From assembly GCA_011033025.1 (NCBI GenBank), contig WFMF01000107.1:186001-250000 (forward strand): a stretch of 64,000 bases of DNA, read 5' to 3'. Below, piece by piece: positions 52,788-61,235 of this stretch. The notes beneath the pieces are model-generated. The model ran no database searches and was not told the DNA's origin. It saw only the letters and a list, made by a program, of their open reading frames with translations. This DNA is from Beroe forskalii. Lineage: Eukaryota > Ctenophora > Nuda > Beroida > Beroidae. How positions within the stretch are numbered: position 1 is the first letter of the stretch; each line of letters begins with the position of its first letter. The position numbers were made by a program, and so were the translations under genes.

Positions 52788-55700
52788 TTACGAGGCAGCA
52801 GCAAGAGCAGCCTTTTCGATAATATTTGTGACAATTCCGGTGCCAATCGTTTTTCCAGACTCCCTAATTGTAAAGCGCTGCCCAATCTCCATGGGAATAC
52901 CCGAACTTGAGACAGAGTTGAGATCAATGGTCGCATTATCGCCGGGCATCACCATGTCCATGCCCTCTGGTAACTTGATCTAAGGAGATGGTATTTTACT
53001 TTCAGGTGGAAAAGCTTGGAGGCCTATTCCAAATAATTACCTCTGAAATGTGTCATGAAACACCAATTTCTTATTTGAATTTTAAATATTATTATTAAGG
53101 AGTGAGAAAAGTTTTGGAACTAATAGAATAGGATAAGTCGAATGGAATATTGGAATAATCACTAAGTTACAAATACGATAAAATAAGTACTTTATTTGAC
53201 TCCACATGTTGTGGAATGTGGATTATATTGTGACTCACAGAAAAGCTAAGACTTACTGAAAAGCTAGTGGCGTATCCCTTGCTGTACACAAGGGGCTCGA
53301 ATTTGTTGAAGAAAGGCTTGTGTCGGCCTCCCTCGTCCTTCGTCAGGAAATAGCACTGGGCCTGGAAACAGGAAGGGATTTAGAACATAGAATTCGCCTC
53401 TCTTTTGCGCGCCGTCGTTTCACTCCTCGTCGTTCCGACGTGGGAGTCAGTTTAGATGGATGAACGGCACCAAAAGCAGAAAATAGACACGAAATAGGCC
53501 TGCAAAAAATGAGCTGGAAGTTTAAAAATCAAGTGTATCACTGAATATGCCATGATTAAACTTAGAAAGGCCGGGTCACTAAAATTCCACCAAGCAGTCG
53601 GAATATTTGTCAAATTCACGAGCCGTCGGATCGTTGCTCCCCTACCTGGAATGATTTGATGGACTCGATGCTGTTGGGAGCGCAGACAATAGTTCCACCC
53701 CTGACATCAGCCCTGGTGACCCCTCTCAGGAGGATGCCTACGTCATCTCCAGCCTGGCCCTCCTCCAGAGTCTTGTTAAACGTCTCCACTCCTGGGGGAG
53801 TGGTTAGTGGGGGGAGTGGTAAGTGGGGGGGGGAGTGGTTACTGTGGGGGGAGTGGTTTGTGTGGGAAGGGGGGAGTGGTTAGTGGGGGAGGGGGAGTGG
53901 TTAGGGGGGGGAGTGGTTAGTGGGGGGAGTGGTAAATGTGGGGAGGGGGAGTGGTTAGTGTGGGGGTGGTAAGTGGGGGGTTAAATGTGGGGGGGGGGTG
54001 GTTAGTGGCAGGAGTGGTTACTGTGGGGAGTGGTAACTGGGGGAGTGGTTGGGGGGAGTGGGGGGAGTGGTTAATGTGGGGGGGGGTGGTTAGTGGGGGT
54101 TAAGTGGGGGATTAAATTGGTTGGGGGAGGGGGGAGTGGTTAGAGTGGGGAGGGGAGTGGTAAGTGGGGGGGGGAGTGGTTAGTGTGGGGGGGGAGTGGT
54201 TAAATGGGGAGAGTGGTGGGGAGGAGTGTTTAGTGTGGGGAGTGGTAAATGTGGGAAGGGGGAGTGGTTAGTGTGGGGAGGGGAGTGGTTAGTGGGGGGG
54301 AGTGGTTAGTGAGGGAGTGGTTGGTGGGGGAGTGGTTGGTGGGGGAAGGGAGGTTGTGTGTGGGGAGGAGGAGTGGTTAGTGGGGGGAGTGGTGGTTAGT
54401 GGGGGGAAGGGGAGGTTAGTGTGTGGGGAGGGGAAGGGGGGAGTGGTTAGTGGTAAATGTGGGGGGAGTGGTTAGTGTGGGGGGGGGGAGTGGTTAGTGT
54501 GGGGAGGGGGAGTGGTAAGTGTGGGGGAGGGGGAGTGTGGGGGAGGGGGAGTGGTTAGTGTGGGATTGGGGAGAGGTTCGTGTTGGGAGGGGAGTGGTTA
54601 TCACTTGAGTGGAGTGGTTTGCAGTAGCACGGAGAGAGTTGATAAGATGTAGAGGGAGGGGGGGTTACGGTGATGATACCGATTACCGGGAATTCAATAA
54701 TCATTGAATTCAACTCCAATTCTAAAAAGGATGGAGCAATATTCCGGACAAAAACCCACCTATGACGGAACTCTTGATACGTTTTCCCTTTCCGATGACC
54801 TCGCACGGATCGCCCTTCTTGACGATGCCCCGCTCAATCCGACCACTGCAGACCACGCCCCGCGCGACCTGGAACGATCCTTCAGCCGAGAGCAGGAAAG
54901 GCGAGGTAAGGTCACGCTGTGGCTCGGGAATGTGGGTATCCACAGTGTCCATCAGTTTCTTGATAGCTTCCACCCCAATCTCAGGCTTAGTGTCGTTGAG
55001 AGCACATATGAGGGGGGGAGGGAGCTTATATATGGATAGTGAAGAAGAGACTTCAAAACATTACAAAGCTGCGTCAAAACATTGGAGAATCTGTATCAGA
55101 TGATCACAACTTGCCAAAGGGACAAAGGGAATGGAATCTCATATGGCAGATCCGAAGATAAATGGAGTATTGTCAGCATCGAAGCCGTATTTCTCCAGCA
55201 GTTCCCTGATTTCCATGTCCACCAACTCCAGCATCTCTTCGTCGTCCATGATGTCCACTTTGTTAATGAACACCACCAGGTTCTTTATACCTGAAACAAA
55301 ATAAGAAATTAAAAACGAAATCTCCCAGAGTCATTCCGTTAAATGGGTTGCGAACTCTAAGACCGGCTAAAACTGTAGTATTTCTCAAGTCTGCAAAAAT
55401 TTCTTTGCTGGAATGACATGATACAAACTCTCTAGTTCAGCATGGAACACGTGACATCATGCTTGATTTAGCAGTGTACTGTGCATGCTCAGAACTTCAA
55501 TTAGTCTGACTCTCTCCGTGAAAATGCTGTTGTTGCGAATATCAGTGACTATTTGAGGTAATTTCAGTATCTATTTGATTGTATTCCTTGACTGATCTAC
55601 TTTTGCAAGGAGCATGATAAGGAAACCAAGAATAGACATCTTCCTGAAAATCCTGATACTGATTTATGTAATCTACATATTTTCGCCACTTCTACCAAAC

Positions 55701-57476
55701 TCCGTAGACCTAAGCCCAGCCCTAAAACTGCAAGATAACGTGAACCTCAGCCCAGCCCTAAAACTGCAAGATAACGAGTCAGTTCGACGATTTATTGAGA
55801 AACTCCAACATCCCGAGGACTGTGACTCCGCCCGGAAACTCGTCTGTCCGCTAACTCCGGCTTGCGGGTTCGGCTGCATAACCCACAAACTTGTGAACTG
55901 TTTCATATACGCTGCCTGGACAAACCGGACCGTGTTACTGTACCCCTTCCCAGGACCCATCATAACGAAGGAGGGGTGGGAGCGGTACTTCCTGCCTATC
56001 AGTGAGAACTGTACGAGTTATGGGCGCCCCGAGAAGTGGGGTCCGGACCATGCCCAGCACCAGGTGGTGAGAATAGACTCGCACCGTGCGGCCCCCACCC
56101 CGGGGTTGGAGGAGTGGGAGGGGGTGCCGCCCCCCTGGGTGCAGGCCCCCTCCTCAGTGGAGTCCCCCATGGCTTGGTGGGTGGGGCACATCGTACAGTA
56201 CGTCTACCGGCTCCAGCCCACCATGGCAGAACACGTGAGGGCTGCTAAGGAGAACATTGGGTTTGTAGAGCCCATTCCAGGGATGCAGGTGCGCAGGACG
56301 GACAAGAAACGGGAGACTGAGTATGTGCCAGTGGAGGCATACATGCCGTCCATAGAGCGTTACTATAGCAACCAGAAGAAGGGGGCAGTAAAACGCGTGT
56401 ACTTGGCAACAGACGAGCCTGCAGTGGTGAGCGAGCTACAGACCGAATACCCTGACTACACCTTCATCAGTGATAGTGCGACTGTGAGCGCTGCCAGCAA
56501 CTTTACGCAAAACAGCAGGTTCAGTTCGGAGAACCATTTGGGAATAATAACAGACATTCAGTTGCTCCTGAGTTGCGAGTTTGTGGTGTGCACTCTGTCC
56601 TCTAACATCGGTAGACTTGTGTACGAGGTACACAGCTCGAGATTATGGGATCTCAGGGAGACATTTCACTCGGCAGACAAAGCGTACGAATACCTCTGAT
56701 TACATAAATTCTCTGCTTAAGAATTACTTTACTTTGGGATGACTGGAAAGATTTCATATATCCTTGCCTCTTATTTACTTATTTTACTGATTTCAACATA
56801 TTATAATGATTATGATCAAACTAATCTCAATGATTTTATCGTGTTTCCACTTCTCCTGGGTGAGGGGTCTGAAAATACCAGTTATTTCACTACCTTCCTT
56901 CCCATAACGACAGAAGTCAGAACACAATACATAACCACGTACCTATCTGCTGCGCTAGGAGCAGATGTTCCCTGGTCTGCGGCATCTGTCCGTCCGTCGC
57001 CGCCACCACCAGAATCACGCCGTCCATCTTGCTGGCTCCCATTATCATGTTCTTGACGTAGTCCGCGTGTCCCGGACAGTCCACGTGCGAGTAGTGCCGC
57101 GCGGCGGTCTCGTACTCCACGTGCTGGCTGTTGATCGTGATGCCGCGCACCTGCTCCTCCGGCGCGTTGTCGATCTGCGCGTAGTCGCGGAACTGCGCCA
57201 GCCCATCCTCCGCAAGTACTTTGGGAATACGGGGGGCTCAGTGGGGGTAAAGTGGGGGATGGGTTAAGTAGTGGGGGGGGGGGAAATAGTTTTATCTGAG
57301 TATCTGATCGAGTGATCGAATGATTTGAAAATATTCCTGCTAAATCAATGGTAACTTTATAAGCAAACCTTTAGTGATAGCTGCTGTTAGCGTGGTTTTG
57401 CCGTGGTCAATGTGTCCGATCGTGCCGATGTTCAGATGAGCTTTCTTTCTGTCGAATGTTGCTAGCAACCTTGAAG
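52788..57476 (-). CDS. TUFM: Mitochondrial elongation factor Tu (5' exon missing)
   Basis: Exons 57476-57369, 57218-56943, 55290-55140 joined to 55004-54760, 53791-53646, 53361-53257 and 52979-52788 keep one frame for about 408 codons. GTPase motifs are complete: GHIDHGKT (P-loop), RGITI (switch I), DCPGH, NKVD and GSA. Domain 2 ([17 protein letters not shown]) and domain 3 ([17 protein letters not shown]) follow. It delivers aminoacyl-tRNA to the mitochondrial ribosome. The first exon with ATG and transit peptide was not found. The 135-bp break at 55005-55139 has CATATG at both edges, an in-frame TGA, and no GT-AG boundaries (see findings). The other introns are GT-AG. One intron contains a G-rich minisatellite, another a nested fucosyltransferase gene. 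The introns exclude bacterial contamination. Confidence 0.92.
53795..54600. repeat. G-rich minisatellite in TUFM intron
   Basis: About 800 bp of irregular GGGGAGTGGTTAGTGTGGGG units on the plus strand, almost free of C. Units of about 12-30 bp vary in G-run length (4-10). The non-template strand for TUFM is C-rich, so the template strand is the G-rich one. The array begins immediately at the acceptor of the 53791 exon, so the pyrimidine tract of that acceptor is the repeat itself. Confidence 0.9.
55005..55145 (-). other. 135-bp interruption of TUFM bounded by CATATG repeats
   Basis: CATATG at 55005-55010 and 55140-55145. Removing one copy plus the 129 bp between them restores the conserved FGSAICALND reading. 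Reading through meets TGA directly after the first CATATG. None of the six alternative boundaries inside the repeat gives GT-AG, GC-AG or AT-AC. No terminal inverted repeats. It is either a non-canonical intron or a recent insertion with a 6-bp target duplication. Confidence 0.75.
55614..56699 (+). CDS. Alpha-1,6-fucosyltransferase-like (GT23, FUT8-type), no SH3
   Basis: An intronless 361-residue ORF in an intron of TUFM on the opposite strand. Residues about 8-28 form the type II Golgi signal anchor. Then come [15 protein letters not shown] and CGFGC-x-THKLVNCF (FUT8 N-terminal catalytic part), [14 protein letters not shown], the donor-binding VRRTDK (226-231), RVYLATDEP (261-269), FISDS (284-288) and the final [19 protein letters not shown]8 adds core fucose to the innermost GlcNAc of N-glycans using GDP-fucose. 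This protein stops about where the SH3 domain of vertebrate FUT8 begins, and its stem is short. Eleven residues of the stem are duplicated (two SPALKLQDN copies; a 33-bp DNA repeat at about 55710-55780). Intronless structure suggests a retrocopy that kept an open frame; activity is uncertain. Confidence 0.87.
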   Translation: MIRKPRIDIFLKILILIYVIYIFSPLLPNSVDLSPALKLQDNVNLSPALKLQDNESVRRFIEKLQHPEDCDSARKLVCPLTPACGFGCITHKLVNCFIYAAWTNRTVLLYPFPGPIITKEGWERYFLPISENCTSYGRPEKWGPDHAQHQVVRIDSHRAAPTPGLEEWEGVPPPWVQAPSSVESPMAWWVGHIVQYVYRLQPTMAEHVRAAKENIGFVEPIPGMQVRRTDKKRETEYVPVEAYMPSIERYYSNQKKGAVKRVYLATDEPAVVSELQTEYPDYTFISDSATVSAASNFTQNSRFSSENHLGIITDIQLLLSCEFVVCTLSSNIGRLVYEVHSSRLWDLRETFHSADKAYEYL

Positions 57477-58634: not shown

Positions 58635-61235
58635 ATGTCAAGGATCCTCCTGATAACCCTACTCGTCACATGCCTCGTATACGCAGCAACCAGCAGAGCT
58701 GTCGTGCAGAAACAAAATACCAAAAAACAACTCAGATACAAGAATAAAAACAAAAACAAGAACAAATACCAACCACAAATTGTGGAAAAAGATGGCACCG
58801 CGCAAAATACTGAAAATGTGCCGGCTGCCCTCGAAGATAGGACTGTAGCAAAGGCCGAGGACGTCCACGCTGTAGACAGAAGTCCACCATCACCACCACA
58901 CAGAGACCCAGCACAGAACGGCCAAGCTGGGGCAGGCAACTCTCCTGTCAAGGGTCAGACGGGTCATGCTGATCTGGATAAAGCTGATATGGAGCAAATT
59001 CAAGCTGATCTGGATCAAGCTTTCATTGATCAAGCTGCTATGATTAAAGAACAGATGTGGGAATACGGGGAGAAGTACAAAAAAGATGAGGGTCTCCAAG
59101 AACTCAAGGAGTTAATGGAAATAGTGCAGCTAAGTATCAGCTTGGATGACAGGTTCTTGATTTGTGATGCATTCGCGGACTTTTTTCCAAACCGACTTCC
59201 GGGACAGCATGTGGGAGATTCTAAATCATCAATGGGAGGAAGCGCAGGAAACACTCCTGGAAGTGGGTGGGGAGCTGTTCCCTGGGATGTTTGGTGATTA
59301 TACTGAGCTAGGGGGTGAAGAAGAAAGTGATATTGAAGAAGAAAGTGGGATTGGAGAAGAGAACTGGGGTGAAGAAAGTGGGAGTGAAGAAGAGAACTGG
59401 GAGGACGAAGAAGAAAAAGCCTGGATAAGAGAAGGAGAGGGACATGACAGAGAGGGACATTACGGAGAAGGACATGACAGAGAGGGACATTACGGAGAGG
59501 GACATGACAGAGAGGGACATTACGGAGAGGGACATTACGGAGAGGGACATCACGGAGAGGGACATGACGGAGAGGGACATTACGGAGAGGGACATTACAG
59601 AGAGGAAAACATGACGGAGAGAAGGACATTCGCAGACAAACATTATCAGATTAGACAAAATTATCAGAAAAACATTACGGAGAGGGACATGACAGAGAAA
59701 TTACGGAGAGGACATTGCGAGAGGACATGACAAAATCATGGGATGAAGAGAATACCCTCAAGATACAATACGGAGGGACAATACAGAGAGGGACATTACG
59801 GTGAGGGACATTACGGAGAGGGACATTACGGAGAGGGACATGACCGAGAGGGACATTACGGAGAGGGACATTACGGAGAGGGACATTACGGAGAGGGACA
59901 TGACAGAGAGGGACATGACAGAGAGGGACATGACAGAGAGGGACATCATGGAGAGAGACATTTCAGAGAGGGACATTACGGAGAGGGAAATGACGGAGAG
60001 GGACATTATAGAGAGGGACATTACGGAGAGGGACATCATGGAGAGGGAAATGATGGAGAGGGTCATTACGGAGAGGACATTACGGAGAGGGGCATGTCGG
60101 AGAAGGACATTACGGAGACGGACATTACGGAGAAGGACATGTCGGAGAGGGACATTACGGAGAGGGGCATGACAGAGAGGGACATTACGGAGAGGAACAT
60201 TACGGAGAGGGACATGACAGAGAGGGACATTACGGAGAGGGACATTACGGAGAGGGAAATTATAGAGAGGGACATGACGGAGAGGGACATTCCGGAGAGG
60301 GACATTACGGAGAGGGACATTATGGAGAGGAACATGACGGAGAGGGACATTACGGAGAGGGACATTACGGAGAGGGACATTACGGAGAGGGACATGTCGG
60401 AGAGGGACATGACAGAGAGGGACATTACGGAGACGGACATGACGGAGACGGACATGACGGAGAGGGACATTACGGAGAGGAACATTACGGAGACGGACAT
60501 GACGGAGAGGGACATGACGGAGAGGAACATTACGGAGACGGACATGACGGAGACGGACATGACGGAGACGGACATGACGGAGACGGACATGACGGAGACG
60601 GACATTACGGAGAGGGACATTACGGAGAGGAAAACTGGAATGAAGAAGAAAAAACAGACTCAGAACCAGACTGGCATATGAACGAAGAGGAACAAGAAAA
60701 AGCGTGGAGAGCTTGGATGGAAGATGAAGGCTTTTATTGGGACGAAGAAGAAAAAATCTACAGGATGGTCGAAGATTCTAAACGTGGCAATGTTGATGAA
60801 TACGATCCAGATCCATATGGTCACGATGAAGAGGGACATTACGGAGAGGAAAACTGGAGTGAAGAAGAAGTGATCGAATTAGCAAAATTGTATCCAGAAA
60901 AACGCTGGTATTATGACGAAGAAGAAAGGACTTGGATGGAACAAAAATCCTGGGATGAAGAAGAATACCCTCAAGATACAATGCAGGGCGAAGATTCTAT
61001 GCGTGGCTATGTTGATGATAGCGAACCCTATAACGGAGAGGGACATTACGGAGAGGGACATTACGGCGAGGAAAATTGGAATCACAGAAGAAAACGCAGA
61101 GAGGTTGAAAAAGTAAATCTGAAAGTTCTGGAAGAAAAGCTCAAGTACTTCTTTAGCAGGCGATTATACTTCAGCTTCATTGCAAATTACTGCCAATTTG
61201 AGCAGGGCAAATGGCACAACTGGCAAGGTTATTAA
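58635..61235 (+). CDS. Secreted His/Gly/Glu-rich pentapeptide-repeat protein, frame-shifted
   Basis: The ATG at 58635 starts a clear signal peptide (MSRILLITLLVTCLVYAATS), then a basic Lys/Asn stretch, a Pro-rich linker and helical parts (DLDKADMEQIQADLDQAF). In an upstream extension (58416) the hydrophobic segment would be internal, so 58635 is preferred. From about 59440 to 60640 a 15-nt unit encodes E-G-H-(Y/D)-(G/R), about 75 times. Acidic Trp-rich blocks (EENW, WDEEE) precede and follow it, then a basic C-terminus (RRKRREVEK) and a stop at 61235. The frame changes at a T6 run (59181-59186), around 59600-59760, and at about 60072 where a GGG is GG; start and end share one frame. I know no family. 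A metal-binding or structural or adhesive extracellular protein is inferred from composition. Confidence 0.6.
59440..60640 (+). repeat. 15-bp coding minisatellite (GAGGGACATTACGGA)
   Basis: About 75-80 copies of GAGGGACAT(TAC/GAC)(GGA/AGA), sometimes GAGACGGACATGACG. All variable positions fit E-G-H-Y/D-G/R coding: the substitutions change Tyr/Asp, Gly/Arg or Gly-Glu/Gly-Asp but keep His. Repeats continue as isolated units at 60832-60846 and 61035-61065. Confidence 0.92.

Follow-up and report, generated by a model that had tools for sequence, protein, structure and literature searches.

Background

Recently gained introns in Daphnia have been attributed to double-strand-break repair; they have short flanking direct repeats and are mostly sourceless (PMC4202315, PMC3443670). 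The nonconventional introns of euglenids have non-canonical borders and direct repeats at their junctions, 8 nt in a recently acquired one (PMC4770533). Introner elements of the dinoflagellate Amoebophrya carry direct repeats at the border, terminal inverted repeats and varied dinucleotides (PMC7789003), and introners are described as multi-copy families with target duplications from which the splice sites are drawn (PMC9860276). Oikopleura dioica and Eurytemora affinis have GA-AG introns, in which the GA dinucleotide recurs with conserved flanks (PMC7072748). In Fritillaria 95% of introns are non-canonical and many have non-GT donors; the type found there has YAY before the 5' site and as its last three bases, and is mostly AG/AC or AG/AT (PMC13326754). 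Direct repeats near intron borders have been reported for introns of many kinds (PMC11782384). PMC12621601 is also among the literature drawn on.

It has long been asked how introns arise and how a conserved gene can retain an insert that lacks splice signals. Here we describe such an insert in the TUFM gene of Beroe forskalii, which encodes mitochondrial EF-Tu. No paper in the literature consulted was recognised as describing this locus, which is weak evidence of novelty.

The TUFM gene and its insert

The window, meaning the whole stretch of DNA analysed (64,000 nucleotides), is C77:186001-250000; the assembly totals 216 Mb and has 1,134 contigs. TUFM lies on its minus strand, with resolved exons spanning 57476 to 52788 (Table 1), and its coding sequence is split by a 135-bp unit between two identical copies of CATATG. 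In the sense of the gene, the upstream exon is followed by CATATG, 129 bp, a second CATATG and then coding sequence again. The frame is open up to F G S A I, where it meets TGA; a second in-frame stop, TAA, lies further into the insert. The length of the unit corresponds to 45 codons.

With one unit excised the gene reads FIFGSAICALNDT and the family sequence is restored. The joined protein (406 aa) scores 503.4 bits against its best match among solved EF-Tu sequences and 497.7 bits against bovine mitochondrial EF-Tu (1xb2), and 110 distinct solved sequences match it with an E of 1e-20 or lower. The join is gap-free in three alignments; the nearest gap, of two residues, is about five to seven residues downstream. 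A first-pass annotation had reported the segment with these coordinates and repeats, and had claimed that removing 135 bp restores EF-Tu; both points stood on re-reading. It also had coding resume exactly after the second CATATG. The second copy, however, is itself partly coding: ATA TGT GCT reads I C A, and coding thus restarts within the repeat.

Table 1. Positions of the features discussed (window coordinates unless a contig is named).
Feature	Position	Strand	Remark
TUFM exon	57369-57476	-	first resolved
TUFM exon	56943-57218	-	
TUFM exon	55146-55290	-	5' of insert; ends ...FIFGSA-I
First CATATG copy	55140-55145	-	5' side in gene sense
Insert unit	55011-55145	-	129-bp core and one CATATG copy; contains two in-frame stops; every cut register non-canonical
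Second CATATG copy	55005-55010	-	3' side; partly coding once one unit is removed
TUFM exon	54760-55010	-	3' of insert; starts I-CALND
TUFM intron	53792-54759	-	mostly degenerate GGGGAGTGGTTAGTG-like repeat on + strand
TUFM exon	53646-53791	-	
TUFM exon	53257-53361	-	
TUFM terminal exon	52788-52979	-	ends with TAA
FUT8-like open frame	55614-56699	+	361 aa, uninterrupted
Repeat-rich open frame	59743-60681	+	312 codons
Imperfect direct repeat	C77:115767		29 bp, spacing 138 bp
Phosducin-like insert	C77:158602-158882	-	281-bp unit
Frame change, S1-domain gene	C77:281466-281514		one base, no intron; by eye
Frame change, CCT1	L041		one base, no intron; by eye
AKR intron 1	C77:282860-283300	+	
CCT3, one copy (L042)	C558:175350-178150		inverted relative to L043
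CCT3, other copy (L043)	C558:214200-216950		inverted relative to L042
U1 locus (L054)	C220:18714-18874	-	starts ATACTAACCTG

The repeat permits seven cut registers (CA-CT, AT-TC, TA-CA, AT-AT, TG-TA, GA-AT and AG-TG). None of the seven is GT-AG, GC-AG or AT-AC, as had been claimed at first reading, and none has an AG 3' end, so the GT-AG or GC-AG ends of a U2-type intron are absent from every register. U12-type introns have a ATATCCTT-like donor and an AC or AG acceptor as consensus. The AT registers of TUFM start ATATGAG or ATGAG and finish in TC or AT, and a U12-type intron was rejected because of the mismatch at the donor. Five other introns of TUFM (B, C, E, F and G) could be resolved at both ends, and all are GT-AG; one further upstream is known from its AG end alone. 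The first-pass statement that the other introns in this and neighbouring genes are GT-AG is borne out for these five and for most of the neighbours, but not for AKR intron 1 (GT-TG) or the phosducin-like insert.

The ends of the unit form an 8-bp terminal inverted repeat, CATATGAG/CTCATATG, which is mostly the palindrome CATATG with only AG/CT in addition. Folded as RNA, the unit has a z of -2.88, matched by none of 200 shuffles, with 8 bp of pairing between its ends. The sense strand is 65% pyrimidine, a level reached by 1.07% of random 135-mers. Among random 135-bp cuts, 0.64% in 264 kb and 1.2% in the gene region have a flanking repeat of at least 6 bp; of mismatched donor/acceptor pairs, 6% equal or pass the 6 bp seen here.

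A TUFM intron contains, on the opposite strand, a frame for a FUT8-like fucosyltransferase (E 4.5e-74). A LINE-like reverse transcriptase was also found, and these two genes, together with the protein families present, give the host an animal-like character. The repeat-rich frame at 59743-60681 is made of a repeated ERDITERDMTER/GEGHYGEGHYG-like motif.

Source copies, empty site and spliceosomal RNA genes

Searches of the assembly with a 166-bp query (insert and flanks) and with the 129-bp core at E up to 10, the latter being a check proposed at first reading, returned the self-match only; both were made with a search that passes over common words, which makes the rarity of the insert provisional. 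The central 27-mer, allowed up to three mismatches, also matched only itself. These searches, in which the insert matched nothing but itself, weigh against an abundant element that jumped recently. The joined 20-mer of an empty site has no exact match in the assembly; with three mismatches it occurs at six places, versus eight for a reversed control pattern. The assembly yielded no sister copy of the insert and no second haplotype of the site. The TUFM protein, as typed, has 14 matches in the 216 Mb, five at this locus and nine elsewhere at 30-38% identity. A pseudogene or a second TUFM is also disfavoured, as the gene looks intact elsewhere and the genome search gave no close second copy. No known RNA family reaches its gathering score in the window, and none appears at E up to 1 in 54700-55400.

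The genome has ten matches to U1 and one to U12. Two of the three U1 loci fetched start with ATACTTACCTG; the third starts differently (Table 1) and, judged by its sequence, would pair better with GTTAGT donors, which are present at several introns here. The ordinary 5' end of two of these U1 genes gives no grounds to expect donors of the TUFM type to be accepted, and the U1 and U12 genes looked at held nothing to account for the choice of a donor without GT.

Exon junctions in other conserved genes

Junctions were read in genes of C77 (two tandem AKR genes, a RANBP9/10-like, an S1-domain and a phosducin-like gene) and in HBS1L, EEF1A, CCT1, 2, 3 (two copies), 6, 7 and 8 and eight proteasome genes. 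Names other than TUFM are what we take these genes to be from family matches and known homologues. For each junction, every cut yielding exactly the expected peptide was listed; the peptides were picked by the author from three-frame readings, and the sample is small and not blind. Seventy-two peptides were run and two were dropped before counting, which left 70 junctions. At CCT8.5 the computed cut was wrong and distant, though a GT-AG solution exists; at CCT7.2 the peptide was one residue short, and a GT-AG cut can be read in the flanks. The 70 exclude junctions that resisted resolution, among them some in the S1-domain gene, HBS1L and the second AKR gene. CCT3 copies a and b are counted as one independent locus.

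A GT-AG cut is available at 62 of the 70 junctions. The other eight (7 independent) offer neither a GT-AG nor a GC-AG cut that yields the expected peptide: TUFM, AKR intron 1, the phosducin-like insert, CCT6 introns 1 and 3, CCT8 intron 1 and the same CCT3 intron in both copies. Exact direct repeats of at least 11 bp are found at eight junctions (7 independent), namely CCT3 a, CCT3 b, CCT6.1, CCT6.3, phosducin-like, CCT7.1, CCT7.4 and PSMA6.2, versus 0 of 4,426 mismatched donor/acceptor pairs, about 0.02% of which reach 10 bp. The last three are GT-AG introns, and canonical junctions alone give 3/62 versus 0/3,472 mismatched pairs. Long repeats of this kind are the trace expected of recent insertions that duplicate their target. 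Outside the 70, each of three GINS3 junctions offers a GT-AG cut.

Repeats of 6 to 19 bp are the sole feature common to the non-GT junctions apart from AKR; no donor dinucleotide is common to them. Four besides TUFM keep an AG 3' end in one register (CCT3 was judged by reading). The strongest cases in the survey have repeats of 11-19 bp; with its 6 bp, TUFM is placed in the set by the random-cut control and by its architecture. Four other non-GT units have 4, 0, 0 and 3 end-to-end pairs, three GT-AG units have 0, 0 and 6, and hairpin ends were rejected as a class feature because end pairing is not common to the repeat-bounded set. When 264 kb were scanned de novo for open frames broken by repeat-bounded segments, simple repeats swamped the result.

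AKR intron 1 is GT-TG in the register that keeps the motif DCALVYQNE; its tandem paralogue has GT-AG at the matching position. The phosducin-like unit, whose repeat came to light in a repeat scan, has a 20-bp direct repeat (one mismatch) across the exon junction and is AT-AG in one register. CCT6 intron 1 is GA-AG and CCT6 intron 3 AT-AG, again in one register each. In CCT3 the unit measures 149 bp in copy a and 144 bp in copy b, breaks the frame in both copies and bears an 18-19-bp repeat; the copies lie inverted about 40 kb apart and are identical at 165 of 170 aligned bases over insert and repeats. The pair may be a true inverted duplication or two haplotypes joined by the assembler. No third CCT3 was identified among 45 CCT search matches, read in part. 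That both copies are interrupted argues against rare null alleles. Two CCT-like genes sampled, which read as CCT4 and CCT5, are uninterrupted.

GT-AG cuts with a changed protein are possible at CCT6.1 (5 residues fewer or 9 more), CCT6.3 (2 fewer), CCT8.1 (1 fewer), CCT3b (17 to 27 more) and, worked by hand, the phosducin-like insert (1 or 4 more). For CCT3a the ranges tried gave GC-AG cuts only, with no GT-AG. Seven other inserts were searched jointly and six gave their own locus only (CCT3 plus its second copy); the CCT6.3 insert holds about 130 bp of a dispersed repeat with at least 33 further matches (40 of 106 candidates scored).

At the end of an open frame elsewhere on C77 there is an imperfect direct repeat that ends in ACAGGTA (Table 1), such as would be produced if an AGGT site were duplicated in tandem.

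Proposed origin and removal of the insert

The 135-bp segment is read here, with moderate confidence, as a young intron that arose by a repeat-generating insertion and would be cut out of the RNA at non-GT boundaries. About 129 bp would have been inserted, with duplication of 6 bp of the target, CATATG, by repair of a staggered double-strand break or by way of some element. Removal from the pre-mRNA would leave one CATATG, in whichever register, with no GT at the start or AG at the end; the predicted junction is ...GGATCTGC joined to CATATGTGC. The insert would then belong to a broader set of introns in this genome that are bounded by direct repeats. That set appears mixed: some members are ordinary GT-AG introns, and in others the expected protein is preserved by no GT-AG or GC-AG register. 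From the sequence we infer removal at the RNA level, the spliceosome as its agent, the young age and the mode of insertion; the other repeat-bounded inserts were presumably made by break repair or by other elements, and removed by RNA processing. Between the two readings offered at first, a non-canonical repeat-bounded intron and a fresh insertion that inactivates the gene, the former is favoured, because TUFM looks intact elsewhere and gave no close second copy in the genome search, the insert matched only itself, no exact empty site was found, and comparable repeat-bounded inserts lacking a GT-AG or GC-AG cut are present in other conserved genes, both CCT3 copies included. Some observations go against a young intron. 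A young insert should have a source, and the genome searches found none; the TUFM repeat is shorter than in the strongest cases and comes without an AG 3' end; and several of the other exceptions have the GT-AG cuts with altered protein given above.

The main rival is a loss-of-function allele: a heterozygous individual of which the insert-bearing allele was assembled, with the insert staying in the RNA. The two in-frame stops and the lack of a canonical cut are as such an allele would have them, the 6-bp repeat could be an ordinary target duplication, and only one haplotype seems to be represented at TUFM. We consider it unlikely, as it leaves similar inserts in other conserved genes unexplained, above all those in both copies of CCT3. 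The missing source or sister copy also counts against it, though a young intron needs a source too. An artefact of assembly is very improbable. The assembly is imperfect, to judge by apparent single-base frameshifts in the S1-domain gene and CCT1, which are probably assembly errors; however, a unique 129-bp insert with exact flanking repeats is unlike a homopolymer error, and similar inserts occur on several contigs.

Splicing might instead use more ordinary sites and change the protein, for example GC-AG at TCT/GCCATA and TATATAAG/CT with four extra residues. Such in-frame solutions exist in TUFM, and imprecise gains are described for introners in the available part of PMC9860276. This too is improbable: the conserved alanine of GSA would be replaced and LPPPL added there, the GC-AG donor is poor, and no GT-AG cut is found among the 30 closest alternatives of 302. 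Finally, the repeat itself might fix the ends without U1, as is supposed for euglenid nonconventional introns, or the segment might be excised from the DNA. The repeats common to the non-GT cases bar AKR and the pairing of the TUFM ends both speak for this, but the units do not have end pairing in common, an AG 3' end survives in one register at four other non-GT junctions, and nothing in the loci analysed points to DNA excision; we regard it as distinctly improbable.

Clean removal of the TUFM and CCT3 inserts in RNA would mean that this lineage recognises donors more loosely than the GT rule allows. If they are not so removed, loci of this type show how often such insertions break genes. With exact repeats of at least 11 bp at eight of 70 sampled junctions, the genome would let intron birth be observed directly.

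Comparison with known systems

The TUFM insert resembles the gained introns of Daphnia in being flanked by a short repeat and in having no source that was found; however, 118 of 120 derived introns there are GT-AG (PMC4202315, PMC3443670, in the parts available), whereas the TUFM insert has neither GT nor AG. With introners it shares the target duplication, CATATG being present twice, but the several similar copies per genome expected of them are wanting, as the genome searches returned the insert alone. Compared with the terminal inverted repeats of introners, that of TUFM is 8 bp long, and 6 of these are the palindromic repeat. Border direct repeats, inverted repeats at the ends and varied dinucleotides are likewise seen in Amoebophrya, where many elements fall into families but singletons are also reported (PMC7789003, as far as available); no second copy was found of the TUFM insert.

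The animals with GA-AG introns, Oikopleura and Eurytemora, tolerate non-GT donors, and the GA-AG register of CCT6 intron 1 is comparable; the exceptions here have no common donor dinucleotide. Fritillaria offers an animal intron that is neither GT nor AG, and the TUFM register CAT/ATGAG...CAT has YAY at both ends. That register is one of seven and is AT-AT, and most sampled junctions in this genome have a GT-AG cut. With the euglenid introns the TUFM insert shares non-canonical borders, direct repeats and ends that can pair, although the host is no euglenid and end pairing is not general in the set. A broader and quite unlikely reading is that this genome gains introns by insertions leaving direct repeats of 6 to 19 bp, and that the repeat rather than GT and AG fixes their ends; such introns, alongside those of the ordinary GT-AG type, would be an animal counterpart of the nonconventional introns of euglenids, with TUFM, which has neither GT nor AG, as the extreme case.
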